From contig NZ_CP025113.1 in NCBI RefSeq assembly GCF_002831585.1, positions 2,108,001-2,172,000 on the forward strand: a stretch of DNA of 64,000 nt. The letters are read 5' to 3'. Positions within the stretch are counted from its first letter, which is position 1, and each line of letters begins with the position of its first letter. The position numbers and the translations under genes were made by a program. Positions 9,761 to 52,393 of this stretch are shown here, piece after piece. The DNA comes from Bradyrhizobium sp. SK17 (GTDB taxonomy: Bacteria; Pseudomonadota; Alphaproteobacteria; Rhizobiales; Xanthobacteraceae). The notes beneath the pieces were generated by a model. That model saw only the letters and a list, made by a program, of their open reading frames with translations, had not been told where the DNA came from and made no database searches.

Positions 9761-12271
9761 TTACCCCTTCGCCTCGCGCTGCGCACCGAGCTGCGGCGAC
9801 GCGGTTGGATGCACCGGCACGTGCCAGATGTCCTCGGCATATTCGCGGATGGTGCGGTCGGAGGAGAACCACGCCATGCGCGCCACGTTGAGGATCGAGG
9901 CGCGGGTCCAGGCCGGCGGCACCTGCCAGCGGGCATCGATGCCGCGTTGCGCGTCGTAGTAGGAATCGAAATCCGCCGAGACCATGTAGTGGTCGAGATA
10001 GCGCAGCGCGTGCCCGATCGAGGCGAAGCGCGCGGCGTCGCCCGGCGAGAATTCGCCACTCTCGATGGCGCGGATCGCGCGCTCCAATCGCGGCGATTTG
10101 CGGATTACGTCAGAGGCATCGAGCCCCTGCTTGCGGCGGACCATGACGTCGCCGGCCTCGAGGCCGAAGATCGCGATGTTCTCGGGCCCGACCGCGTCGC
10201 GGATCTCGATATTGGCGCCGTCGAGCGTGCCGATGGTCAGCGCGCCGTTCAGCGCGAGCTTCATGTTGCCGGTGCCGGAGGCTTCCATGCCAGCGGTCGA
10301 GATCTGCTCGGACAGATCGGCGGCCGGAATGATCACCTCGGCGAGGCTGACATTGTAGTCGGCCAGGAACACCACCTTCAGCTTGCCGCCGAGCGAGGCG
10401 TCATTGTTGACCATTTCGGCAACGTCGTTGATCAGTTTGATGATCAGCTTGGCGTAGCGATAGCTCGCCGCCGCCTTGCCGGCGAAGATCTTGACCCGCG
10501 GCACCCAGTTCGCGGCCGGGTCGTCCTTCATCGCGTGATAGAGCGCGATCGTCTCCAGGATGTTGAGCAGCTGCCGCTTGTATTCATGGATGCGCTTGAT
10601 CTGCACGTCGAACAGCGCCGACGGATCGACCTTGACGTTGTTGCGCTCGCCGATCAGCCGCGCCAGCGCCAGCTTGTTGTGATGCTTGACGTCGCGGAAC
10701 CGGCTCTGGAATGCGAGGTCGCTGGAATGCGCCTCGAGCCGATCGAGCAGCGAGAAGTCGTCGAGCACGGCCTCGCCGCAGGTCTCGCGCAGCAGCGCGG
10801 TCAGCCGCGGATTGGCCAGCATCAGCCAGCGGCGGAAGGTGATGCCGTTGGTCTTGTTGGTGATGCGCTGGGGATAGAGATGATGCAAGTCGTGGAACAC
10901 GGTCTCCTTCATCAAATCGGAATGCATCGCCGACACGCCGTTGATGCGATGCGAGCCGACGAAGGCGAGCTGGCCCATGCGCACGCGGCGGCCGCTCTTC
11001 TCGTCGATCAGCGAGACCGAGGCGCGATACTCGATGTCGCCGGGGAAGCGCTCCTCGGCAAGCGCCAGATGCGCCACGTTGATGCGGTAGATGATCTCGA
11101 GATGCCGCGGCAGCAGCCGCTCGAACAACTCGACCGGCCAGGTCTCGAGCGCTTCCGGCAGCAGCGTGTGGTTGGTGTAGGACAGCGTCGCGACGGTGAT
11201 CTTCCAGGCCTCGTCCCAGCGGAAATTGTGCAGGTCGACCAGGATGCGCATCAGCTCGGTGACCGCGAGGCTCGGATGGGTGTCGTTGAGCTGCACGGCC
11301 GCCTTCTGCGCGAGGTTGCGCAGGCCGCCGTCGGAGGCGAGATGCCGGTTCACCAGATCCTGCAACGAGGCCGAGACGAAGAAATACTCCTGGCGCAGCC
11401 GCAGCTCGCGGCCCGCCGCGCTCTCGTCGTTCGGGTAGAGGAATTTGCAGATCGCCTCGGCGCGCGCCTGCTCGGCGCTGGCCGAGACGTAGTCGCCTGA
11501 GTTGAAGACGTCGAGCTTGAGCGGGTCGGGCGCATGCGCCGACCACAGCCGCAGTGCGTTGACGTGCTGGCCGCGCCAGCCGACGATCGGCGTGTCGTAG
11601 GCCATCGCCTCGACGGTTTCGGAAGGATGCCAGATGGCGCGGTCGCGGCCGCGCTCGTCGACATGCTCGACGGTGCCGCCGAAATGGACGTTGTAGACCA
11701 CCTCCGGCCGCTGGAACTCCCAGGGGTTGCCGAACGCCAGCCACTCATCGGGATATTCCTGCTGCCAGCCCTGGTTCATGATCTGGCGGAACAGGCCGAA
11801 ATCGTAGCGGATGCCGTAGCCGGTGGCGGGGATCGCCAGCGTCGCCATGCTCTCCATGAAGCAGGCCGCGAGCCGCCCGAGGCCGCCATTGCCGAGCGCC
11901 GCGTCCGGCTCGCATTTGCGCAGGTCCGACAGATCGACGCCGAGGTCGCCGAGCGCGGCCTCGAACAGCGGCAGCAATCCCATATTGTTCAGCGCGTCGG
12001 TGAACAGGCGGCCGATCAGGAATTCCAGCGAGAGATAATAGACGCGCTTGGCGCCGGCGTCGTAGGTCTGCTTCTCGGCCGTCAGCCAGTGATGCACGAT
12101 GCGGTCGCGCAGCGCCAGCGCCGCCGCCTTGTACCAGTCGCGCCGGGTCGCCACGGTGGCGTCCTTGCCGATCGCAAGCCGGAGCTTGGCCAGGATCGCG
12201 CCCTTGATCTCGCTTAGCGCCAGCTCGTCAACCGGCTGATTCAAGGCCGGATAGTTTGTTTGTTCCTGCAA
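9761..12271 (-). CDS. glgP: Glycogen/alpha-glucan phosphorylase
   Basis: An 836-residue GT35 phosphorylase releasing glucose 1-phosphate from alpha-1,4-glucan. The pyridoxal-phosphate site EASGTGNMKLALNGALTIGT is intact near the C-terminal third, and the N-terminal RVYYLSLEFLIGR segment is typical. Length matches the bacterial enzyme. Translation appears to begin at TTG (12271), preceded by GGGGAT; no ATG occurs nearby in frame. No other glycogen gene (glgA, glgB, glgC, glgX) is in the window, so it is physically isolated from the usual glg operon. Confidence 0.95.
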   Translation of the reverse strand: MQEQTNYPALNQPVDELALSEIKGAILAKLRLAIGKDATVATRRDWYKAAALALRDRIVHHWLTAEKQTYDAGAKRVYYLSLEFLIGRLFTDALNNMGLLPLFEAALGDLGVDLSDLRKCEPDAALGNGGLGRLAACFMESMATLAIPATGYGIRYDFGLFRQIMNQGWQQEYPDEWLAFGNPWEFQRPEVVYNVHFGGTVEHVDERGRDRAIWHPSETVEAMAYDTPIVGWRGQHVNALRLWSAHAPDPLKLDVFNSGDYVSASAEQARAEAICKFLYPNDESAAGRELRLRQEYFFVSASLQDLVNRHLASDGGLRNLAQKAAVQLNDTHPSLAVTELMRILVDLHNFRWDEAWKITVATLSYTNHTLLPEALETWPVELFERLLPRHLEIIYRINVAHLALAEERFPGDIEYRASVSLIDEKSGRRVRMGQLAFVGSHRINGVSAMHSDLMKETVFHDLHHLYPQRITNKTNGITFRRWLMLANPRLTALLRETCGEAVLDDFSLLDRLEAHSSDLAFQSRFRDVKHHNKLALARLIGERNNVKVDPSALFDVQIKRIHEYKRQLLNILETIALYHAMKDDPAANWVPRVKIFAGKAAASYRYAKLIIKLINDVAEMVNNDASLGGKLKVVFLADYNVSLAEVIIPAADLSEQISTAGMEASGTGNMKLALNGALTIGTLDGANIEIRDAVGPENIAIFGLEAGDVMVRRKQGLDASDVIRKSPRLERAIRAIESGEFSPGDAARFASIGHALRYLDHYMVSADFDSYYDAQRGIDARWQVPPAWTRASILNVARMAWFSSDRTIREYAEDIWHVPVHPTASPQLGAQREAKG

Positions 12272-12475
12272 CGCGCCAATCCCCGCCGTTCAGACTCTAC
12301 GCAATGATACGCGCGTTGCGCTGCAATCGAAACCGTCGAGAGCCGTTGCGCACTGCACTTGCCGTGATTTTATGCAAGGACCGGGCCGATTTCAGGCATT
12401 CGAACCTGCCGCTTGCGGTGCTATCATCGGCTGCGAACGCCGAGATTTTGCGACAGTTTTTGCGGAGCAAGCGTG

Positions 12476-12709
12476 ATGAGACTGCTGATCGAGATCGCCG
12501 CCGCGGCGCTGTTCGTGATCTGCATCACCGCCACCAGTGCAGCGTTTGCCGCCGGCAAGACCGGCCGCAGCGCCGACGGCCTGACCTGCGGCTTCAGCGT
12601 TTCGCAGAATGCATCGCCGGCCGCGCGCTGCGCCGCCATCAAGCGGCAATGCGGCGGCAAGTTTGGCGCGAACGCGTGTGGCGACAAACTGCTGTCGGCC
12701 GCGAATTGA
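12476..12709 (+). CDS. Small secreted cysteine-containing protein, unknown function
   Basis: A 77-residue protein with a clear signal peptide: MRLLIEIAAAALFVICITAT followed by a likely cleavage after AAFA. The mature part is about 50 residues, basic, with four cysteines (TCGF, ARCAA, RQCGG, ACGD) spaced as if to form two disulfides. GGAG precedes the ATG at 12476; the frame also stays open upstream to 12413 but without a ribosome-binding site. It is divergent from glgP. No family is recognised. Confidence 0.55.
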   Translation: MRLLIEIAAAALFVICITATSAAFAAGKTGRSADGLTCGFSVSQNASPAARCAAIKRQCGGKFGANACGDKLLSAAN

Positions 12710-12861
12710 ACGATCGCGCAACGTGTCTTCACGCGCGCTCGGGAACACCGTGGTGATACGGATTTGCAAGGCTTAACGAGTTCTTTACAACCGCACCTGT
12801 CGCTCGTGGGGCGGGCACATTTTTGAGCTCCGACGCATTTCATTCCGAAGCAATTTTCGGC

Positions 12862-12896
12862 GGGCCGCTGACAGCGTCAGCGGCCCGTATGCTTTT
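12862..12896 (+). terminator. Strong hairpin, possible terminator
   Basis: A perfect ten-base stem GGGCCGCTGA / TCAGCGGCCC with a five-base loop is followed by GTATGCTTTT. It lies about 150 bases after the small secreted protein gene. The U tract is short and offset, so termination is plausible but not certain. Confidence 0.45.
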
Positions 12897-12957
12897 GGGG
12901 CAGATTATGCGAGCGATCAGGCGTTCCTCTTGTGGGGCGAAGGCAGTCACCGCAATT

Positions 12958-13357
12958 CGTCGCCCCGGCGCAGGCCGGGGCCCATAACCACAGCCGTCAG
13001 AGAAGATGGGACAGGTCGCTCCACTCCGGATTGTCTTGCTCGATCAGGCGAACCTTCCAGTCACGGCGCCATTCCTTCAGCGCCTTTTCGCGTGCAATCG
13101 CCTCCTGTGGTGAAGCGTAGGTCTCGACGTAAACCAGTCGCGTGACGCCGTACTTCTTGACGAACTGTGAGCCGCGTCCGGAGCGATGGAGTGTAAGCCG
13201 ATTGCGAAGATCATTGCTGACGCCGATGTAGAGCGTTCCGTGGCGGCGGCTCGCAAGGATGTAGACGTAATAGACTGCGGCATCCATTCCAGGGCACCGA
13301 TCACGTGAACTGTCCGACAGCGGTGGTTATGGGGCCCCGGCCTTCGCCGGGGCGACG
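12958..13357. mobile_element. Putative GIY-YIG nuclease unit bounded by inverted Group B palindromes
   Basis: The left end (12958-13000) and right end (13314-13357) are inverted near-copies of one 43-base element: a hairpin GTCGCCCCGGCG..GGCCGGGG followed on the inner side by CCCATAACCAC and a related CAGC/TCAG tail. Between them lies one gene, a small GIY-YIG nuclease, whose stop codon falls inside the left repeat. A 122-base copy with the same end structure but no gene is at 20487-20608. Boundaries are inferred from the repeats; no target-site duplication was identified. Confidence 0.5.
12997..13287 (-). CDS. GIY-YIG nuclease superfamily protein (UPF0213/YhbQ-like)
   Basis: A 96-residue single-domain nuclease of the small free-standing GIY-YIG family. 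YVYIL at 7-11 and LYIGVS at 19-24 form the two beta strands bearing the signature. Arg27/Arg30 follow, and Glu67 in AREKALKEWRR is the expected metal-binding residue, so the active site looks complete. The gene lies entirely between two inverted palindromic repeats and its last codons run into the left one. Small nucleases of this family are multicopy in Bradyrhizobium genomes. A role in processing or spreading the flanking palindromes is an inference. Confidence 0.88.
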   Translation of the reverse strand: MDAAVYYVYILASRRHGTLYIGVSNDLRNRLTLHRSGRGSQFVKKYGVTRLVYVETYASPQEAIAREKALKEWRRDWKVRLIEQDNPEWSDLSHLL

Positions 13358-13474
13358 CGCCGTTGATGACAATAGAACGAATTAAGAACACTTTAGCAAG
13401 TCTTTGATATATCATTATGATTCGGCGCTGTGCCGATACAATATCTAGGGTCTCCCAGCTTCCGCGAGGACTAC

Positions 13475-13906
13475 ATGTCCACCATCGCCTTCGATCAGTT
13501 CGCTCTCACCCGCATCGCGGACTTTGCCCGCTCGCTGTCGCGGCTGCATTTGGCCTCGCGCCGCCAGGCGATCGACGACGACCAGCTCGATCGCGAGTTC
13601 AACGCGGTCTGCATGTCGATCTGGGGCTACACCACGGACGATTTCAGCGACGATCTGTTCTCGCTCGAGGACCACGCCTGGCTCGACTCGCTCGACGAGG
13701 CGCATGCGCGCCTGTTCGCCGCCGAGCAGGGTTATGACCTGGTCGACGACCACGGCATGCTGACCGATTGGTGGGGCTATTGCTGGATGATCCTCGCCGA
13801 GAAGCGCGGCATCCTCAATCCGGAGAACCGTGCCGCCGCGCGCGCTGCGATCGAGGAGAAATACCTGGCGGCGCCGAACGTGATCGGCGTGATCGTGGCG
13901 CGCTGA
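13475..13906 (+). CDS. Conserved acidic tryptophan-rich protein, unknown function
   Basis: A 143-residue soluble protein with no signal peptide or membrane segment. It is acidic and has several tryptophans (MSIWGYTTDD, DHAWLDSLDE, LTDWWGYCWMILAEKRGI), suggesting a compact helical fold. The ATG at 13475 is chosen because GAGGA lies nine bases upstream; the frame is open to 13430. I do not recognise the family. It is monocistronic, between the GIY-YIG unit and the convergent DUF2865 gene. Confidence 0.6.
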   Translation: MSTIAFDQFALTRIADFARSLSRLHLASRRQAIDDDQLDREFNAVCMSIWGYTTDDFSDDLFSLEDHAWLDSLDEAHARLFAAEQGYDLVDDHGMLTDWWGYCWMILAEKRGILNPENRAAARAAIEEKYLAAPNVIGVIVAR

Positions 13907-13932
13907 CACTGCTGACGTGACGGCCTGCGCCG

Positions 13933-14772
13933 TCAGTTCGCGTCGGCCCGCTTGCCCGACTTTGCCGTGTTGCCCTTCGGCACGACGGTGGACGGCGCGA
14001 CATCGCGGCTGGTTTCCGGCAGCGGCGCATCGCCTGCGAGCTCGGCGCTGACCGGCGCGACCTTCATTTCGCCGAGCCGCGCGCGCACCGCCGCGGTCAA
14101 TCCGGGATAGGAGGCGACCGGCGTGAAATCGAACGATTGCTCATTGCCGACGCGGATGCCGGTATAGGCGACGAGGCCGTCGGTGGTCGCGATCACGTCG
14201 CCGGCTTTCAGCGAGGCATCGAGCGCGAGGTCGACCGGCGCGAGCCCGGCAGGGTCGCGGCCGTTGCAGGTGCAGTCGGCGCGCAGCGCCTTGCGATAGG
14301 CGAAGGCGTTTTCGCTGTCGGCGTAACGCTCGCCGGTGCTCGATGCGGAGCTGTCGATATGGCTGCCGTAATACACCTTGGTCGCGCTCGCCGGGCAGAA
14401 TGCCTGGCAGAGCTGCGCCGGCGTCGCGTTGCCGCGCATCGTCAGCGGAAAATACTTGCCGTCGCAGCTGCGCACGCAATAGGCCGGTCCGGAACCGGCC
14501 ACGCGGGGTGCCGAGACGGGCGCGGACGGCTGTCGTTCCGGCTGCTGGTTGAGGCCGAACGGGTCGGCGAAGAAATTGGCCTGCGGCGGAGCCTGCCGGC
14601 CCTGCTGCTTCGGGGCACCGCCAAAGAAGAAGTCGAACAGCCCTTCGGCCGAGACGGGTGCGGGGAGGACCACGACGGAACCCGCAAACGCTGCGGCGGC
14701 AAGCATCACGCGGCGCCGCATGCGCCGATCATTGAACTTTGTACGCAACGCCAACTCCACCCGACGCGCCAC
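13933..14772 (-). CDS. DUF2865 secreted protein
   Basis: A 279-residue exported protein. A signal peptide (RRRVMLAAAAFAGSVVVL..VSA) is followed by a proline/glutamine-rich linker, then a cysteine-containing domain with AYCVRSCDGKYFPL, CQAFCPA and CTCNG motifs at about 98-170, characteristic of DUF2865. A disordered, basic tail ends the protein. The frame opens with GTG at 14772; an ATG at 14721 gives a more standard signal-peptide N-terminus and may be the true start. The function of the family is unknown; the motif spacing suggests disulfides in the periplasm. Confidence 0.75.
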   Translation of the reverse strand: MARRVELALRTKFNDRRMRRRVMLAAAAFAGSVVVLPAPVSAEGLFDFFFGGAPKQQGRQAPPQANFFADPFGLNQQPERQPSAPVSAPRVAGSGPAYCVRSCDGKYFPLTMRGNATPAQLCQAFCPASATKVYYGSHIDSSASSTGERYADSENAFAYRKALRADCTCNGRDPAGLAPVDLALDASLKAGDVIATTDGLVAYTGIRVGNEQSFDFTPVASYPGLTAAVRARLGEMKVAPVSAELAGDAPLPETSRDVAPSTVVPKGNTAKSGKRADAN

Positions 14773-14883
14773 GCCGCGGCGATGAATGCCCCGGCGGTTT
14801 CACCTTAAGACGGGATGGTAAACGAGCGATTGATTGCGCGTGACCGCGTCACAAGAAGAAGTCGACGTCGCGCGGACTTCTCT

Positions 14884-14918
14884 GCACCTCGCCCCGCAAG
14901 AACGGGGCGAGGGAGACG
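14884..14918. repeat. Group E palindrome (CTCGCCCCGCAAG..GGGGCGAG)
   Basis: A short perfect hairpin of the CCCTCTCCCC-type family just downstream of the pyrE stop. It could terminate or stabilise the pyrE message. Confidence 0.6.
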
Positions 14919-14926
14919 AGAGACCG

Positions 14927-15490
14927 TCAGTCCTTCAGGAACTCGCCGGCCTTGTACAGCGCGCGGAACTGCAACCCGGCTTCGGAGAAGGTCTCGGTCG
15001 CGCCTTCCTCGCGGTCGACCATGGTGAAGACCAGCGCGATCTCGCCGCCGGCTTCGCGTACGGCTTCCGCTGCCTTCAGCGCCGAGCCGCCGGTCGTGGT
15101 GACGTCCTCGACGATCACGATCCGCTTGCCGACCAGCGTCTCGCCCTTGGCGAGCCCTTCGACCGACAATCGCGCGCCGTGCTCCTTCGGCTTCTTACGC
15201 ACGAAGAAGGCGGCGATCGGATGGCCCTTCAGCCAGGACAGCTGTGCGATCGCGCCGGCGAGCGGCACCGCGCCCATCTCGAGCCCGCCGACGAAATCGA
15301 GCCTGTCGTCCTTCAGCGCCTCATAGGTGAGCTCGGCGAGCAGCGCGGCGCCCTCGGGATCGAGCATCGTCGGCTTCAGGTTGAAATAGAAGTCGCTCTT
15401 GCGGCCCGACGCCAAGGTGATCTCGCCGCGGCCGAACGAGCGCTTGCGGATGATCTCGGCGAGGCGGGCGCGGGAGGCTGATTTGGACAA
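14927..15490 (-). CDS. pyrE: Orotate phosphoribosyltransferase
   Basis: A 187-residue enzyme joining orotate and PRPP to give OMP in pyrimidine synthesis. The PRPP-binding signature [15 protein letters not shown] and the N-terminal [13 protein letters not shown] are clear. The start is taken as TTG at 15490 (reading [14 protein letters not shown]), preceded by AAGGGA. The frame is open another 43 codons to an ATG at 15619, but that extension has no family similarity. It is divergent from the glutathione transferase gene. Confidence 0.92.
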
Positions 15491-15681
15491 AGGCTTTTTC
15501 CCTTGGGGGTTTGAGGCGGCCGGCAATCTATCGGCGGTCACCGGCACATTCCAGCGTGGAAACCGGGCCGTCAACAGTGCCTGTGCCGCGATTTCGGCGG
15601 GCACGCTTGCGAGCGGCACGGCTTGTCCGCGTCTCCGGTTCCCCCTAAAGCAGGCGCCAAATATTTGCGAGGGAAGCGGAA

Positions 15682-16308
15682 ATGACCATCGAGCTGCACA
15701 CCTGGAACACGCCCAATGGCCGCAAGATCTCGGTCGCGCTGGAGGAAATGGGGCTGCCCTACAAGGTGATCCCGGTGAACATCAGCAAGGGCGAGCAGAT
15801 GGCGCCGGCCTTCCTCGCGATCAGCCCGAACAACAAGATCCCGGCGATCGTCGATCCCGACGGCCCCGGCGGCAAGCCGGTCAGCATCTTCGAATCCGGC
15901 GCGATCCTGCTCTATCTCGGCGAGAAGACCGGCAGGTTCCTGCCGAAGCCGCTGGCCGAGCGGATCCCGGTCTATGAGTGGCTGATGTGGCAGATGGGCG
16001 GCTTCGGCCCGATGCCGGGCCAGGTGCATCATTTCATCGCGCTGGAGAACGAGCAGGACCGCGCCTACGGCCTGAAGCGTTACATGGCCGAGACGCGGCG
16101 GCTCTACGGCGTGCTGGACCGCAGGCTCGACGGCCGCGATTTCGTCGCCGGCGATCTCTCGGTGGCCGATTTCGCCATCCTCGGCTGGGCCTGGCGCCAT
16201 CCGCGCCACAAGGTCGAGCTATCAGACTTCCCCAACGTCAAGCGCTGGTACGAGGCACTGATGGCCCGCCCCGCGACCAAGCGAGGTATGGAAGCGAAGC
16301 TGGATTGA
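15682..16308 (+). CDS. Glutathione S-transferase family protein
   Basis: A 208-residue cytosolic protein with an N-terminal thioredoxin-like domain ([41 protein letters not shown]) and an all-helical C-terminal domain. The TPNG segment and the PGQVHHF region resemble the nu/Ure2p-like (YfcG, YghU) class, where Thr/Asn replaces the usual catalytic Tyr or Ser. GAGGGAAG precedes the ATG. The likely role is glutathione-dependent disulfide or peroxide reduction; the substrate is unknown. Confidence 0.85.
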
Positions 16309-16313
16309 GGGGC

Positions 16314-16472
16314 GCTCTTCCCTTCTCCCCCTGTGGGAGAAGGTGGCGCGAAGCGCCGGATGAGGGGTTGGCTCCGCTTGCGAGATTTCGCCGAGTGGAG
16401 AGAGACCCCTCACCCGGCTTCATCTCGCTCCGCTCGATTTCGCCACCCTCTCCCACAAGGGGAGAGGGTACT
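16314..16472. repeat. Group E palindrome cluster
   Basis: Inverted modules of the TTCTCCCCCTGTGGGAGAAGG and CCCTCTCCCACAAGGGGAGAGGG type enclose short secondary hairpins (GGCGCGAAGCGCC). They fill the space between the convergent GST and LysE genes. Confidence 0.75.
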
Positions 16473-16474
16473 TA

Positions 16475-17110
16475 TTAGGCCCGCCGCGCCTCCAGCGCCA
16501 TCTTCACTGCGAGCCCGGTCAGCACGGTGCCCATCAGCCAGCGCTGCACCAGCAGCCAGGTCGGGCGGGTGCCGAGGAACACGGCGATCGAGCCGGCGGC
16601 GAGCGCGATCATCGCATTGACGCTGACGCTGATCGCGATCTGGATCGAGCCCAGCGCAAGCGACTGCGTCAGCACGCTGCCGCCGGTCGGGTCGATGAAC
16701 TGCGGCAGTAGCGCCAGATAGAGCATCGCGATCTTCGGGTTCAGGAGGTTGGTGACGAAGCCCATCGCGAACAATTTGCGCGGGCCGTCGACCTTCATCG
16801 TCTTGACCTGGAACGGCGAGCGGCCGCCGGGCCTCAGGGCCTGCCACGCGAGCCAGAGGAGATAGGCCGCGCCGGCGAAGCGCAGCGCGTCATAGGCATA
16901 GGGGATCGCGAACAGCAGCGCGGTGATGCCGAACGCCGCGCACAGCATGTAGAACACGAAGCCGAGCGCGACGCCGCCGAGCGACACGATGCCGGCCGCC
17001 GGCCCCTGCGTGATCGAGCGCGAGATCAGATAGATCATGTTCGGACCCGGCGTCAGCACCATGCCAAGTGAGACGAGCGCAAAGCCGAGCAGAGCGGAGG
17101 TGTGGGGCAT
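16475..17110 (-). CDS. LysE/RhtB family amino-acid exporter
   Basis: A 211-residue inner-membrane protein with about six hydrophobic helices. The N-terminal LVSLGMVLTPGPNMIYLISRS signature and the central FVTNLLNPKIAMLYLALLPQF motif are diagnostic of the LysE superfamily. It exports an amino acid or derivative; the substrate cannot be predicted. No adjacent LysG-type regulator is present. Confidence 0.9.
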   Translation of the reverse strand: MPHTSALLGFALVSLGMVLTPGPNMIYLISRSITQGPAAGIVSLGGVALGFVFYMLCAAFGITALLFAIPYAYDALRFAGAAYLLWLAWQALRPGGRSPFQVKTMKVDGPRKLFAMGFVTNLLNPKIAMLYLALLPQFIDPTGGSVLTQSLALGSIQIAISVSVNAMIALAAGSIAVFLGTRPTWLLVQRWLMGTVLTGLAVKMALEARRA

Positions 17111-17212
17111 GATGGGTCTCGCGAGGGGATACGCACACTTTTAGCGTGTCATCCGATACGCGGCCATGCGGGAATTGCTCTCGGAGCAATGTGGTTTGCA
17201 GCTCGCTCCGGC

Positions 17213-17331
17213 CTCTCATCGTCATTCCGGGGCGTGCGTAGCACGAACCCGGAATCCATCGGGCCACATCACGTGCGGATGAATGGATTCCGGGTTCTCG
17301 CCTGCGGCGAGCCCCGGAATGACGATGAGAG
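17213..17331. repeat. Group D long inverted repeat (CGTCATTCCGGGGC type)
   Basis: A near-perfect inverted repeat of about 119 bases: ctctcatcgtcattccgggg at the left and its complement at the right, with internal hairpins. It sits between the lysE start and the polA end. A shorter relative is at 37816-37856. Confidence 0.85.
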
Positions 17332-17348
17332 ACCGGGGCGAGCGGAGT

Positions 17349-20300
17349 CTAATGCGCCTCGTCCCAATTGTTCGCGGCTCTCGCATCGACCTGCAACGGA
17401 AGCGACAGGAGCACGGCCGGGAACGGCGCGTCCTGCATCACCTTCTGCACCACCGGCAGTGTCGCCGCGACCTCGTTGTCGGGCACCTCGAAGATCAGTT
17501 CGTCATGCACCTGCAACAGCATCTGCGCCGAGAGCTTCTTCTCGGCGAGCGCGTCCTCGACCCGGATCATGGCGCGGCGGATGATGTCGGCCGCGGTGCC
17601 CTGCAAGCGCGCGTTGATCGCGGCGCGTTCGTTGAACGCGCGCACCGAGGCGTTGGAGGCCTTGATGTCGGGGTAGTACATCTTACGGCCGAACAGCGTC
17701 GTCACATAGCCGTTGCGGCGGCAGAAATCCTTGGTCTCGTCCATATAGGCGCGGATGCCGGGGAAGCGCTCGAAGTATTTCTTGATGTAGGCCGAGGCTT
17801 CCTCGCGCGCGATGCCGAGCTGGTTGGCGAGGCCGAACGCCGAGATGCCGTAGATGATGCCGAAGTTGATCGCCTTGGCGCGGCGGCGCACCTCGCTCGG
17901 CATGTCCTTGATCGGCACGCCGAACATCTCCGATGCTGTCATCGCGTGAATGTCGAGCCCGTCGCGGAACGCCTGGCGCAACACCGGCACGTCGGCGATC
18001 TCGGCGAGCAGCCGCAATTCGATCTGGGAGTAATCGGCCGACACCAGCTTGTGGCCCGGCGTCGCGATGAAGGCGCGCCGGATCTTGCGGCCATCCTCGG
18101 TGCGCACCGGGATGTTCTGCAAGTTCGGCTCGTTCGACGACAGCCGTCCCGTGGTGGTCGCGGCCAGCGCGTAGGTGGTGTGGACGCGATGGGTCTGCGG
18201 ATTGACATAGGTTGGCAGCGCATCGGTGTAGGTCGATTTCAGCTTCGAGACCTGGCGCCACTCCAGGATCTTCTTCGGGAATTCGTGGCCCTGCTCGGCG
18301 AGATCGTCGAGCACCTGTGCGGTGGTCGACCACGCGCCGGTCTTGGTCTTGGTGCCGCCGGGCAATCCCATCTTGCCGAAGATGATGTCGCCGATTTGTT
18401 TGGGGCTGCCGACATTGACCGGCTCGCCGGCGATCTCCTGGATCTCGGCCTCGACGCGCGCCGCGGTCTGCGCGAAATCGCCCGAGAGGCGCGAGAGGAC
18501 CTGGCGATCGATCGAGATGCCGCGGCGCTCCATCCGCGCCAGCACCGACACCAGCGGCCGCTCCAGCGTCTCGTAGACAGTGGTCATCCGCTCGGCGACG
18601 AGGCGGGGCTTCAGCACGCGCCACAGCCGCAGGATCACGTCGGCGCTTTCGGCGGCGTATTCGGTCGCCTTGTCGATCGTGACCTGGTCGAAGGTCAGCT
18701 TGCCCTTGCCGCTGCCGACGAGGCCGCCGTAATTGACGACGGCATGGCCGAACCAGCGTTCGGCGAGCTGTTCCAGCGCGTGCGAGCCGCGGCCGGCATC
18801 GAGCGCATAGGACATCAGCTGCGCATCGTCGATGTTGCGCAGCGTGATGCCGTGCTGCGCCAGCGTCACCGACGTGAACTTGACGTTGAAGCCGACCTTC
18901 TGGATGCCTGCGGACTCCAGCAGCGGCTTCAGCGCCGTCAGCACGTCGGCGGTCTTGATCTGGCCGGGCGCGAGGCCGGCGTCGAACAGGCCCGCGCCGC
19001 CGCCGGCCTCCCGGTGGCCGAGCGGCACGTAGCAGGCGTCGTTGGGCGCCACCGCGAGCGCCAGTCCCGCGAGCTCGGCCTGCATCGGGTCGATCGATTC
19101 CGACATCGCCTCGATCGCGAGATAGCCGGCGTCATGCGCGCGGGCGATCAAGGCGTTGAGCTGGTCGAGGCTACTGATCGCCTGATACGCCTTGCGATCG
19201 AAGCCGGTCTTGCGGATCGCTTCGCCGCGGGCCTCGGCCAGCGCGGCCGGCGTGCCCTTCAGGCTGGAGTTCTTGTCGTCGCGCGCACCGGTCGGCTTGG
19301 CTCTCGCGGCCGGTGCCGCGGCCGATGCGGGTGCATCGCCTTGTGCCGGCGTGACATCCGACGGCGGCAGCGGCGAGAACACACTGGCGCCGCTCTTGTT
19401 GCCGGGATCGGCGTCGACGTTGGCCGGGTCGATCTGCGCGTAGTCGGCGACGCGGCGGGTGAGGGTGGAGAACTCCATCGCCTTGAGGAAGGCGACCAGC
19501 TTGCGCGCGTCGGGCTCGTGCACCGCGAGGTCGTCGAGCGGCACCTCGAGGTCGACCTTGTCGTCGAGCAGCACGAGCTGGCGCGAGATGCGCGCCTTCT
19601 CGGCATTCTCCAGCAGCGCCTCGCGCCGCTTCGGCTGCTTGATCTCGCCGGCGCGGAACAGCAGTTGATCGAGGTCGCCATATTCGATGATCAGCTGTGC
19701 GGCGGTCTTGACGCCGATGCCGGGCACGCCGGGCACGTTGTCGGTGGAATCGCCGGCCAGCGCTTGCACCTCGACCACCTTCTCCGGCGGCACGCCGAAC
19801 TTCTCGATCACCTCGTCGCGGCCGATGCGGCGATCCTTCATGGTGTCGTACATCAAGACCTTGTCGGAGACGAGCTGCATCAGGTCCTTGTCGGAGGAGA
19901 CGATGGTCGTCGATGCGCCGCGCTCGCTGGCGAGCCGCGCATAGGTCGCGATCAGATCGTCGGCCTCGAAGCCGACCTGTTCGAGACAGGGCAGGTCGAA
20001 GGCGCGCACCGCCTCGCGGATCAGCGCGAATTGCGGGATCAGATCGTCCGGCGCCGGCGGCCGGTGCGCCTTGTAATCCGGATAGAGCTTGTTGCGGAAG
20101 GTGATCTCGGACTTGTCGAAGATGATCGCGAGATGAGTCGGCCGGTTGTCCTCCGGCATGTCGCGCAAGAGCTTCCACAGCATGTTGCAGAAGCCGAGCA
20201 CGGCGTTGACCTGCAAGCCGTCGGACTTGCGGTTGAGCGGCGGCAGCGCGTGATAGGCGCGGAAGATGTAGCCCGAGCCGTCGACCAGAAAGATATGGTC

Positions 20301-20411
20301 GCCCTTGGCCGCCGGCTTGCTCGCAACCGGCTTGGCAGCGGCGGGTTTGGCGGTCTTCGGAGCGGGCTTTTCAGCTGGCTTGGCGGGGTCTTTGGAGGCT
20401 GTTTTCGGCAT
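17349..20411 (-). CDS. polA: DNA polymerase I
   Basis: A 1020-residue repair and replication polymerase. After a Lys/Pro/Ala-rich N-terminal extension (about 1-35) comes the 5'-3' exonuclease (IFLVDGSGYIFRAYHALPPL onward). A 3'-5' exonuclease-like domain follows at about 410-600, then the polymerase with motif A (VSADYSQIELRLLAEI), motif B (RRAKAINFGIIYG) and motif C (QVHDELIFEVP), all intact. The proofreading residues look lost: the DxE position reads IEAMSES, the KYDR region reads KFTS, and YAAED reads YAAES. The domain is therefore probably structural only. Confidence 0.96.
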   Translation of the reverse strand: MPKTASKDPAKPAEKPAPKTAKPAAAKPVASKPAAKGDHIFLVDGSGYIFRAYHALPPLNRKSDGLQVNAVLGFCNMLWKLLRDMPEDNRPTHLAIIFDKSEITFRNKLYPDYKAHRPPAPDDLIPQFALIREAVRAFDLPCLEQVGFEADDLIATYARLASERGASTTIVSSDKDLMQLVSDKVLMYDTMKDRRIGRDEVIEKFGVPPEKVVEVQALAGDSTDNVPGVPGIGVKTAAQLIIEYGDLDQLLFRAGEIKQPKRREALLENAEKARISRQLVLLDDKVDLEVPLDDLAVHEPDARKLVAFLKAMEFSTLTRRVADYAQIDPANVDADPGNKSGASVFSPLPPSDVTPAQGDAPASAAAPAARAKPTGARDDKNSSLKGTPAALAEARGEAIRKTGFDRKAYQAISSLDQLNALIARAHDAGYLAIEAMSESIDPMQAELAGLALAVAPNDACYVPLGHREAGGGAGLFDAGLAPGQIKTADVLTALKPLLESAGIQKVGFNVKFTSVTLAQHGITLRNIDDAQLMSYALDAGRGSHALEQLAERWFGHAVVNYGGLVGSGKGKLTFDQVTIDKATEYAAESADVILRLWRVLKPRLVAERMTTVYETLERPLVSVLARMERRGISIDRQVLSRLSGDFAQTAARVEAEIQEIAGEPVNVGSPKQIGDIIFGKMGLPGGTKTKTGAWSTTAQVLDDLAEQGHEFPKKILEWRQVSKLKSTYTDALPTYVNPQTHRVHTTYALAATTTGRLSSNEPNLQNIPVRTEDGRKIRRAFIATPGHKLVSADYSQIELRLLAEIADVPVLRQAFRDGLDIHAMTASEMFGVPIKDMPSEVRRRAKAINFGIIYGISAFGLANQLGIAREEASAYIKKYFERFPGIRAYMDETKDFCRRNGYVTTLFGRKMYYPDIKASNASVRAFNERAAINARLQGTAADIIRRAMIRVEDALAEKKLSAQMLLQVHDELIFEVPDNEVAATLPVVQKVMQDAPFPAVLLSLPLQVDARAANNWDEAH

Positions 20412-20486
20412 GGCCGAAACTTAGGGATTTTTGCGCGAATTGACAGCCTGTGCGTCGTAGAATCCGCTCTTGCCACACAAGCAATT

Positions 20487-20608
20487 GTCGTCCCGGCGAA
20501 GGCCGGGACCCATAACCACAAATGATTGTTGCTTGATCTCGCTGTGGCCCCAGCCTCATCCAAACCCGCGCAGTCGTGGTTATGGGTCCCGGCCTTCGCC
20601 GGGACGAC
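20487..20608. repeat. Short gene-less Group B element (inverted palindrome pair)
   Basis: Left copy 20487-20519 and right copy 20576-20608 are perfect inverted repeats of a 33-base unit: hairpin GTCGTCCCGGCGAAGGCCGG plus CCATAACCAC pointing inward. The 56-base centre has no reading frame. The layout matches the ends of the GIY-YIG unit at 12958-13357, as expected for a non-autonomous derivative. It lies between polA and the response regulator gene. Confidence 0.8.
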
Positions 20609-20629
20609 GATCAACTCGGGACGCCGCCG

Positions 20630-21367
20630 TTACGCCTTGTCGCCGGTCGGCGAGAACAGGTAGCCGCCGCCGCGGATGGTGCGGATCACCGAGGGCTTGG
20701 TCGGATCGAACTCGATCTTGCGGCGGATGCGCATGATGCGGAGGTCGACGGCGCGGTCGAAGGCTTCGGCGTCGCGGGCATTGGCGAGTTCCAAGAGCCG
20801 CTCGCGCGACAGCACGCGCTTCGGGTTGGCCGCGAACACCTTCAGCAGGCCGAATTCGGAAGCGGTCAGCGGATGCTCGTTGCCTTCGTCGTCGCGCAGC
20901 GCCTGGGCCTCCAGATCGAGCCATTTGGTGCCGAACCGCACCAATTGCTCCTTTTCAGCCTTGCCGCTCGCCGGTTCCGTCGCGGCGGTCTTGGCCGGCC
21001 CGCTCCGCCGCAGCACCGAGCGGATCCGCGCCATCAACTCGCGCAATTCGCAGGGCTTGGCGACATAATCGTCGGCGCCGAGCTCCAGGCCGACCACCCG
21101 GTCGATCGGGCTGGCAGTAGCTGTCAGCATGATGACGGGGACGTTGATCTTGCTCTTGAGGTCGCGGATGATCGAGAGCCCGTCTTCCTCGGGCATGTTG
21201 AGGTCGAGCACCACGAGATCGGGCGTGCTGCTCTCGATCTCCTTGCGCAGGCTCTTGCCGCCGTCGCACAGCGTCACGCCGAAGCCATGCATCTTGAGAT
21301 AGTCGCCGACCATCTCGCGGGCCGGCGCCTCGTCATCGACGATGAAGATATGCGGGTTCTGGCTCAT
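20630..21367 (-). CDS. OmpR-family response regulator of the TRAP-binding-protein operon
   Basis: A 245-residue regulator: receiver domain with Asp55 as phosphate acceptor (LVVLDLNMPEEDG) and Lys in YVAKPCE, then a winged-helix DNA-binding domain ending RTIRGGGYLFSP. The ATG at 21367 overlaps the stop of the upstream hybrid kinase by four bases. A longer frame continues upstream but is antiparallel shadow of the kinase. As the last gene of a four-gene operon, it is the expected transcriptional output of the pathway. Confidence 0.92.
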   Translation of the reverse strand: MSQNPHIFIVDDEAPAREMVGDYLKMHGFGVTLCDGGKSLRKEIESSTPDLVVLDLNMPEEDGLSIIRDLKSKINVPVIMLTATASPIDRVVGLELGADDYVAKPCELRELMARIRSVLRRSGPAKTAATEPASGKAEKEQLVRFGTKWLDLEAQALRDDEGNEHPLTASEFGLLKVFAANPKRVLSRERLLELANARDAEAFDRAVDLRIMRIRRKIEFDPTKPSVIRTIRGGGYLFSPTGDKA

Positions 21368-23112
21368 GATGTCTCTGTCGCCGGCAGTGTAACCGTAAAG
21401 GTCGAGCCCTGTCCGGGGCCGGGGCTCTGGGCGGTCACATGGCCGCCATGCATGTCGATGATGCGCTTGACGATCGAAAGGCCGAGCCCGGTCGAGCTCT
21501 CGCCCGCGGTCGGCTTGGCCGACAGCCGCTGGAACCGGCCGAACAGCCGGCTGAGATCTTCCGGGCTGAGGCCGGGACCCTGGTCGGCGATGCGGATCAC
21601 GGTGTCCTCGCCCTCGTGACTGACCCCAACCGTGATCTTGCCGCCGATCGGCGAATATTTGATGGCGTTGCTGACCAGATTGTCGATCGCCTCGCGGATC
21701 CGGTCGGCGTCGCACATCGTGACGAAATGCTGCGGCCCGGAGACCGAGATGCTCTGCTGCTTGTTGACGGCCGAGGGCAGATTGGCCTCGGTGACCTCGT
21801 TGACCAAAGCTGCGACATCGACCGGCTCGCGGCGGATCGTGATGTCGAAGGCATCCGCCATCGCATCCGAGATCAAATGATCGACCATCGAGGTCAGCCG
21901 CTTGGTGGCGTCGCGGATGTGCTCGACCTGGGCGGTGACGTTCTCCTTTGGCGAGCCGGCGCCGATCAGTTCGGTCAGCATCTCGGTGCGGCCGAGGATG
22001 ACGCCGAGCGGATTCTTCAAGTCGTGGGCGACGGTGCCGAGGATCTCGTTCTTGAAGCCGTTGGCGCGCTGCAAACGCAGCCATTGCGCCGACAGCCGCC
22101 GGTTGGCCTGCATCAGCGCGCGGGTGCGCTGTACGACGCGGTCCTCGAGCTGGGTGTTGGCCTCGTGCAACTGCTGGTACAGGATCACGTTGTCGAACGC
22201 GATCGACAGCCGGCTGGAGAAGATCTCGACCAGCGCGCGGTCGGTATCGGAAAGCTGGCGCTCGGCCTGCAACAGCACCACCACCTCGCGGCCAGAGCCG
22301 GTGCGCGAATAGAGCACGCTGCGATGGTCGGCGAACTCGTTCTTGCGGCGTTGGAAGGCTTCCTCGACCATGTGGCGGAGATCGGCATCGAGCGCCCGCG
22401 ACGAGGTGGTGCCGATGAAGCGGCTGTAGCAGCCCGAGCAGGCCAGCACCGAGAAGTCGCAGGCGGCCGCGTTGCCGTCGTCGCGCAGCACCAGGATGCC
22501 GGCGCAATCGACATTGAGCAGCGAGGCGAGCTGGGTCAGCACGCCCTCGGCGAGTCGCTGCATCGACTTGAAATCGTACAGCGTCGAGGCGGCATCGATG
22601 ATGATCTCGAGCCCGCGCCTGGTCTGCACCATGCGCTCGAGCTGCTGGTAGCTGCGCAGCGCCGCGGTCAGCGAGGTGAACAGCTTGTCGGCGGTGAGCT
22701 CGGTCTTCGCCTTGTAGTCGTTGATGTCATACTGCACGATGACGCGGCGCTCCGGCGCCTGGCCGGGCTGGCCGGTGCGCAGGATGATGCGGACGGTCTC
22801 GTTCCTGATCTCGTTGCGGATGTACTCGACGAGCTCGAGGCCGGCGACGTCGGTCTCCATGATGACGTCGAGCAGCACCGCCGCGATGTCGGGATTGTCC
22901 CGCATCAGCGTGCGGCCTTCGGCCGCAGAGTAGGCCGAGAGGATCTCCAGCGTCGCACCGTTCAGGTTGTAGTCGCTGAGCGCGAAACGGGTGCCTTCAT
23001 GGACGGCGTGATCGTCGTCGATCACGGCGATCTTCCATTTTCGTACCGGCGAATCCTCCGGGGGGCTCTCGGTGTCGTCGATCAGTTGGAGGACATCGTC
23101 CTGTTCGGCCAT
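21364..23112 (-). CDS. Hybrid sensor: receiver, DUF3369, histidine kinase
   Basis: A 582-residue soluble protein. An N-terminal receiver (about 25-140) has Asp82 in LLDVIME. It is followed by a DUF3369 region (about 150-310), a coiled-coil linker (320-350), a dimerisation domain with His363 (GTVAHDLKNPL) and a C-terminal ATPase domain (ADQGPGLS; GLGLSIVKR). No transmembrane segment is visible. The receiver preceding the kinase suggests it takes phosphate or allosteric input from the membrane kinase encoded immediately upstream (31-base gene overlap) and phosphorylates the downstream regulator. Confidence 0.88.
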   Translation of the reverse strand: MAEQDDVLQLIDDTESPPEDSPVRKWKIAVIDDDHAVHEGTRFALSDYNLNGATLEILSAYSAAEGRTLMRDNPDIAAVLLDVIMETDVAGLELVEYIRNEIRNETVRIILRTGQPGQAPERRVIVQYDINDYKAKTELTADKLFTSLTAALRSYQQLERMVQTRRGLEIIIDAASTLYDFKSMQRLAEGVLTQLASLLNVDCAGILVLRDDGNAAACDFSVLACSGCYSRFIGTTSSRALDADLRHMVEEAFQRRKNEFADHRSVLYSRTGSGREVVVLLQAERQLSDTDRALVEIFSSRLSIAFDNVILYQQLHEANTQLEDRVVQRTRALMQANRRLSAQWLRLQRANGFKNEILGTVAHDLKNPLGVILGRTEMLTELIGAGSPKENVTAQVEHIRDATKRLTSMVDHLISDAMADAFDITIRREPVDVAALVNEVTEANLPSAVNKQQSISVSGPQHFVTMCDADRIREAIDNLVSNAIKYSPIGGKITVGVSHEGEDTVIRIADQGPGLSPEDLSRLFGRFQRLSAKPTAGESSTGLGLSIVKRIIDMHGGHVTAQSPGPGQGSTFTVTLPATETS

Positions 23113-52302: not shown

Positions 52303-52350
52303 GTGGCCGACCGTCCGTGCGTGGCGCAGTGATCGTTCCACAATCTCAGT

Positions 52351-52375
52351 GTCGTCCCGGCGAAAGCCGGGACGA
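52351..52375. repeat. Group B palindrome, solo hairpin
   Basis: GTCGTCCCGGCGAAAGCCGG followed by GACGAC, without the inward CCATAACCAC arm found at 12958 and 20487. It lies between convergent genes. Confidence 0.7.
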
Positions 52376-52393
52376 CAGCGGAGAGATTAGCCG

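Follow-up and report, generated by a model that had tools for sequence, protein, structure and literature searches.

The GIY-YIG Gene and Its Framing Repeats

The window, i.e., the whole 64,000-nucleotide stretch of Bradyrhizobium sp. SK17 DNA analyzed here, contains a 96-codon GIY-YIG nuclease gene on the minus strand at 12997-13287, called as an open reading frame with a PF01541 match. To its left lies a carbohydrate phosphorylase gene (9761-12271, minus strand; PF00343, 1033 bits), which we take to be glgP, and to its right lies an ORF of 143 aa (13475-13906, plus strand) that has no Pfam match and is present in 59 of 60 genomes of the genus. These two neighbors mark a fixed locus, referred to below as the glgP locus. 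The 96-aa nuclease scored 59.2 bits against PF01541 in the Pfam profile search (cut-off 22.6), and this was its sole matching domain; neither the HUH motif nor the IS200/IS605-type catalytic tyrosine of RAYT enzymes was found, and the same search revealed no transposase domain in the gene unit. In the NCBIfam search of the protein, no family exceeded its cut-off, TIGR01453 giving 16 bits where 56 were required. The nearest solved structures by sequence were 1zg2 (E = 1.7e-9) and 1ywl (E = 2.9e-5), which are UPF0213-like small GIY-YIG proteins. Residues Y9, Y20, G22, R30, H34, E67, and N86 were 98-100% conserved among 215-218 proteins of the family, a set that includes some duplicated loci, and they are presumably the catalytic residues of the GIY-YIG literature. 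Internal stops were observed in 12 of 230 family copies, and dN/dS was 0.05-0.14 in nine of the ten gene pairs tested; the only high value, 0.41, came from the pair G058/G009 (G numbers denote genomes), to which a G058 copy with an internal stop belongs. A phage origin of the gene was set aside, with two weak matches among 50,697 records.

The preliminary description of this DNA had proposed that the gene is enclosed by inverted repeats, and the open reading frame, the domain match, and the repeat alignment all confirmed this arrangement. Repeat searches and folding placed one CGTC-tagged REP downstream of the gene on the left (12958-12991, plus strand) and another, inverted relative to the first, upstream of the gene on the right (13323-13357, minus strand). 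According to the fold, the core REP spans about 34 bases: the CGTC tag is unpaired, the stem has 8 bp, the loop has 4 nt, and the tail, also unpaired, contains CCATAACCAC; in both framing copies, the tag points outward and the tail points inward to the gene. When the longer segment 12958-13002 was aligned with the reverse complement of 13313-13357, 40 positions out of 46 matched, gaps included, and "near-identical 43 bases" was therefore a fair wording for these repeats. The stop codon (12997-12999) had been placed inside the left repeat, which is barely true: it lies 5 bases past the core tail and is reached only by the outer part of the 45-base match. An Rfam RNA near the locus was set aside, with no match in 12000-21500, and no intron or intein was noticed around the gene.

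Two gene-less elements of related structure were delimited in the same window. A REPIN-like REP dimer, which recurs in relatives, lies at 20484-20611 and was defined by repeat search and folding; its arms (20484-20524 and 20571-20611) are 41 nt each and 93% complementary, fold into a single long hairpin, and carry the same tails facing inward. It corresponds to the gene-less element noted earlier near 20487-20608 and is a related unit. The second element is a solo hairpin at 52350-52377, whose arms (52350-52361 and 52366-52377) form a perfect 12-bp pairing without the tail motif. Where the window has this bare hairpin, G044, G004, and G010 have a dimer of 107-109 bp, so the hairpin is best read as the remnant of a collapsed dimer with its inner part missing, in agreement with the earlier suggestion of a solo remnant near 52351.

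Repeat Counts and Spacing in the Genome

With at most one mismatch allowed, CCCATAACCAC occurred 4 times in the window compared with 0.18 expected; over the whole genome (8.29 Mb) it occurred 104 times, and the reversed pattern once. Pair spacing was analyzed for 100 of these 104 tail-motif sites. There were 14 inward-facing neighbor pairs within 2 kb, of which 13 were spaced 63-67 bases apart, as in the 20484-20611 dimer, and one was spaced 342 bases apart; no outward-facing pair within 2 kb occurred among the 100 sites. The 342-base pair is the only gene-sized close pair among the sites listed, and thus the one such pair formed by the exact motif encloses the GIY-YIG gene. In this genome, the exact motif is present mostly as dimers and singles, the dimers of about 124 bp being dispersed with their tails inward. 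In the syntenic blocks of G000, G044, G004, and G010, other CGTC-tagged paired palindromes, CGTCATCCTGAGG.. and CGTCATTGCGAG.., alternate at the same intergenic places, and no GIY-YIG partner of either palindrome was seen in these blocks.

Recurrence of the Framing in Bradyrhizobium

At least one match to the gene at 1e-6 was present in 59 of 60 genomes of the genus. The genome under study holds two further genes of this kind (L001 and L002; L numbers denote loci); L002 lies between perfect 47-base inverted repeats that have a different stem and the same CCATAACCAC tail, and L001 has palindromes ending in CCAGTA on either side. With a score of at least 18 between the two 250-base flanks taken as framing, an inverted repeat was shared by both flanks in 62 of the 73 distinct genus genes fetched (63 of 74 rows, in which the window gene was counted twice, as L003 and L006), and the paired repeat was below threshold in the other 11. 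The sample comprised 40 matches among those listed together with other loci already located, the total number of matches being larger. In the shifted-interval control at the same loci, none of 147 intervals was framed and the best score was 13, and of 29 UPF0213-like GIY-YIG genes from these genomes one was framed (300-base flanks; 1 of 30 dropped as too short). These results indicate that the framing goes beyond chance, and both controls speak against the possibility, raised in the preliminary description, that palindromes flank GIY-YIG genes no more often than other genes. A separate UPF0213-like GIY-YIG gene, L004 (G000:C1:1228700), has a tRNA-like stretch and the inverted repeat CAGCCTTCGCTCGCTTCGC just upstream.

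The class of the repeat was found to track the clade of the protein (clade A, 39/41; clade B, 16/16; clade C, 15/15), where the class patterns were drawn up after the flanks had been inspected, many loci represent the same place in related species, and 15 of the 72 classified loci also fit a second, looser class pattern. Repeat abundance was also associated with the presence of the gene. Of the 16 genomes that have the gene at the glgP locus, 12 held at least 5 A1 REPs, compared with 6 of the 43 that lack it there (p = 2e-5, kinship ignored), and the corresponding values for the A2 REPs were 11/16 and 2/43 (p = 1e-6, kinship ignored). G008 has 48 copies of CCATAACCAC despite yielding no gene match at 1e-6, and G014 has 19 A1 REPs with no gene found at the glgP locus.

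A palindrome published for Bradyrhizobium japonicum, Br-REP1 (CCGGAATCTCGAGATTCCGG; PMC5082802), was found, itself or as a close variant, in the flanks of the GIY-YIG genes at L052, L061, L193, L221, and L232, which belong to one subclade. Br-REP1 also resembles the junction of two REP tails, and from both observations it may have a GIY-YIG partner as well.

Recurrence Beyond the Genus

The gene was detected at 1e-10 in 92 of 299 Pseudomonadota genomes. Framing inverted repeats (score at least 16) were found at 41 of 62 loci outside Bradyrhizobium, and the remaining 21 were below the threshold for a paired repeat; L128 (score 43.5) and L129 (9.5), both from other genera, are not among the 62. 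None of the 284 shifted controls for the whole 150-locus set was framed, and as that set overlaps the genus set, we rely on the 62 outside loci. In a permuted-flank control, 34 of 400 reached a score of at least 16 because the loci share repeats, and it is the shifted control that bears on framing. Of the 112 framing repeats above the threshold, 108 carried the tag GTC[AG][TC]. Because the framing recurs in many bacteria, the enzyme is strongly favored as the candidate partner that the widespread CGTC-REP family had seemed to lack.

Counts were also obtained with a generic CGTC-REP pattern, which spans only part of the CGTC families. It reached at least 5 copies in 38 of the 92 genomes with the gene and in 18 of the 207 without it (p = 2e-10, kinship ignored), leaving 54 of the 92 with fewer than 5 copies, and after removal of the own genus the proportions were 31/85 and 17/206 (p = 3e-8, kinship again ignored).

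The homologue in Neisseria gonorrhoeae (L274), which may be SsnA, shares 58% identity with the paralogue L001 over 87% of the query and sits among GTCATTCCCGCG..GGGAATC repeats. Genes 60-62% identical to the query were also present in records of distant organisms, titled Frankia (L208) and Kordia (L226); the repeats at L208 look rhizobial, so contamination is possible. In Sinorhizobium meliloti Ak57 (L275, hflX-mazG), several successive copies of a longer repeat with inward palindrome pairs, tagged CCTC and not CGTC, adjoin the GIY-YIG gene.

Fixed Locus, Exchanged Cassettes, and Movable Dimers

Among the 59 genomes having the 143-aa ORF, 16 carry the gene between this ORF and the glgP-like phosphorylase in one orientation, the copy with the internal stop (G058) being one of the 16, and in a seventeenth genome, G053, the gene adjoins glgP only. 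Twenty other loci were fetched, of which 3 have gene remnants and 17 have no trace; 4 of these 17 also lack glgP nearby, and for those four the comparison is not clean. Being kept at one place with mostly low dN/dS, the gene behaves like a retained enzyme, and the phrase "minimal mobile unit", as originally worded, is not supported for it.

It is worthy of note that the glgP locus holds two diverged cassettes, type 1 with the tail CCCATAACCAC and type 2 with the tail CCCATTACCCC and the stem CCTGGCGAAAGCCAGG; the G009 cassette has a variant tail. Seven species with flanking genes 90-97% alike carry both cassette types, which are only 66-71% alike, and each type also occurs in a second species clade. 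The gene tree and the flank tree were mutually rejected (delta logL 341 and 350; AU p = 4e-6 and 4e-43). The first clade includes three type-2 species; their sequence ceases to resemble the window flanks about 60 bases to the left of the REP tags and resembles them again from about 12 bases to the right. The tree conflict and the flank breakpoints around the REPs indicate that the gene and both REPs change together: the locus is fixed, and what is exchanged there is the whole cassette, whether through recombination, through copying of a homing-like kind, or because an old tandem pair was sorted. Both repeat families are present in genomes of either type, and the A1:A2 ratio does not follow the resident cassette (p = 0.23); the A1 count alone gave p = 0.035 against cassette type. 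In two of the three type-2 species mentioned above, G049 (L016) and G042 (L020), about 250 extra bases separate the right REP from the shared flank, and these are absent from G010 and the type-1 relatives.

A related unit was found at a new place in Azospirillum lipoferum 4B, where a related gene on plasmid p3 lies between sufB and sufC and is itself enclosed by two REP dimers. This unit was present in 1 of the 12 Azospirillum records listed (23 matched), and the 11 others (H29-H39) align on both sides without it; the sufB-sufC gap is 55-129 bases in the four inspected records without the unit, whose borders were not placed to the base. The dimers also vary in their occurrence. Four close species, compared over a block of 60-140 kb, differ in which dimers they have, most dimers being 118-128 bp, and the 20484 site is occupied by a dimer in G044 and G010 and by other sequence in G042, G004, and G003. 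Neither the 20484 dimer, nor the glgP locus, nor seven more sites in the syntenic blocks that have a dimer or a hairpin gave an empty site precise to the base; insertion borders are readable to within tens of bases because the species differ by several percent and the intergenic spacers are rearranged, and at this resolution no target duplication was seen. The expectation of occupied and empty sites was thus borne out in part: sites differ between close species, both for dimers and for the Azospirillum gene unit, but no empty site precise to the base was found.

Comparison With Known Systems

CGTC-tagged REPs have been reported in five phyla, and Bradyrhizobium is a listed host (Di Nocera et al., 2013; PMC3733652). 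They are defined by a stem of 8-9 bp, a loop of 4-5 nt, and a tail that is mostly CCA, and their stems begin "almost invariably" with complementary A-T, which is worded as a tendency (PMC3733652). The framing REPs correspond to this definition in the unpaired tag, the 8-bp stem, the 4-nt loop, the CCA in the tail, the high copy number, and the occurrence of dimers. They differ from the published elements in that they frame a GIY-YIG gene and in that the base of the stem is G-C, not A-T; many of the relatives' repeats have GTCAT.... With no dedicated enzyme found, the 2013 survey left the origin of the CGTC REPs open, and the word GIY does not occur in it (PMC3733652).

The arrangement is similar to that of RAYT (TnpA-REP) genes and REPINs, in which a small nuclease gene lies between inverted palindromes and stays mostly in place, accompanied by dispersed dimers and solo remnants (PMC3733652; PMC8266576). 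As in RAYT and REPtron loci, the gene studied here is located between inverted REPs of a family that is dispersed elsewhere in the genome. RAYT enzymes bind and cut single-stranded GTAG REPs (PMC8266576). However, RAYTs are HUH-tyrosine enzymes with GTAG-tagged REPs, whereas the window combines a GIY-YIG protein with repeats that carry CGTC and not the GTAG tag of RAYT/REPtron REPs. The RAYT-like relation of a GIY-YIG gene to dimer-dispersed palindromes, as suggested in the preliminary description, is supported by the framing counts, the dimers, and the pair spacing.

The nearest relative is probably the Ssn family, which stands beside the RAYT enzymes as the nearest characterized system. Ssn nucleases are small GIY-YIG proteins whose target sequence is repeated in the genome, and according to a Nature Communications paper of 2025 those of Neisseria reportedly cleave single-stranded DNA at such a repeat and influence transformation. 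The window protein is likewise a small GIY-YIG protein (96 aa, PF01541). In the partial literature searched (titles and abstract starts of the matches listed), no publication linking GIY-YIG genes to REPs was found; the Ssn paper may hold such a link. The CGTC-1 elements of Neisseria are equated with dRS3 and form large clusters there (PMC3733652). The Neisseria homologue lies among repeats of the dRS3 form, but dRS3/NIME elements have a stem and tail unlike those of the window repeat and are clustered, whereas the window family occurs mostly as dimers and singles. The UPF0213-like proteins have the same fold family and size as the window protein, but the separate gene of that type in the same genomes, L004 being the copy in the genome under study, was framed by such repeats in 1 of 29 cases. 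GIY-YIG homing endonucleases have the catalytic domain in common with the window protein, and replacement of a cassette at a single locus would be homing-like, but the TIGR01453 score sets the protein apart from them.

Probable Role of the Nuclease and Alternative Explanations

Taken together, it is rather probable that the gene encodes a small GIY-YIG nuclease that recognizes the CGTC-tagged REPs framing it, in a RAYT/REPIN-like relationship with the dimers as the mobile part. The framing with its orientation, its recurrence in Pseudomonadota, the agreement of repeat class with protein clade, the dimer dispersal, and the cassette exchange are observations, and recognition, cleavage, and copying or mobilization of the REPs are putative functions. 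Most probably the protein would bind its REP as folded or single-stranded DNA during replication, uptake, or repair and nick it there or nearby, in the hairpin or its tail, and recombination at the cut would then copy dimers to new intergenic sites and occasionally replace or move the gene cassette. Such a system would work in a RAYT/REPIN-like manner with GIY-YIG chemistry in place of HUH-tyrosine chemistry, the enzyme being mostly inherited in place and the dimers being mobile.

A less likely explanation, although one to be taken seriously, is that the nuclease is of the Ssn type and cuts single-stranded DNA at REPs to tune uptake or recombination, in which case something else would spread the repeats, and the copies around the gene would serve the gene itself, for instance through self-regulation or protection of the locus. 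The repeats surrounding the Neisseria gonorrhoeae homologue, the reported cutting of single-stranded DNA at a repeated sequence by Ssn with its effect on transformation, and the stable position of the gene across many species are consistent with this explanation. Against it, the dimers differ between close species, one cassette has replaced another at the glgP locus, and the sufB-sufC gap has taken up a related unit, so something moves these units, and the enzyme is a candidate mover. It is very unlikely that the framing repeats are ordinary REPs of the 3'-end or terminator-like kind that stand beside a small gene by coincidence, the intergenic DNA being rich in REPs. REPs are located mainly downstream of genes (PMC3733652), and the intergenic regions in question have many dimers, but the present repeats are inverted on both sides of the gene with one of them upstream of its start, their class follows the protein clade, and the controls were unframed in the genus, in the 150-locus set, and, with one exception, among the UPF0213-like genes, the shifted intervals partly standing in for size-matched genes of other families. 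A role as terminators only was set aside on the shifted-interval and UPF0213-like controls. Least probable of all is a classical transposon or homing element hopping as an autonomous unit with MITE-like derivatives, for although the inverted ends, the gene-less and solo derivatives in one window, the Azospirillum unit, and the cassette exchange at one locus are what such an element might leave, the gene keeps its place and orientation beside the phosphorylase in 16 of 59 genomes, the unit has PF01541 without a transposase domain, and no target duplication was seen at borders read to within tens of bases.

Implications for the CGTC-REP Family

The reading of the gene as a nuclease that recognizes its own framing REPs can be extended, tentatively, to the whole superfamily: small GIY-YIG nucleases may be the missing dedicated enzymes of CGTC REPs, spreading dimers by a cut-and-recombine route that would use neither a transposase nor HUH chemistry, and their cassettes would compete as exchangeable, homing-like alleles at shared loci. 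If this were so, two unrelated nuclease folds would have converged on a palindrome-dispersing life style. The strength of the association between gene and repeat points to a candidate enzyme for the CGTC REPs, and a single protein with short oligonucleotides is enough to put the question to the test. Should the enzyme prove to spread the repeats, REP dispersal would have arisen with each of two unrelated nuclease folds. It would also yield many nucleases that are site-specific and have flanks that reveal their targets.
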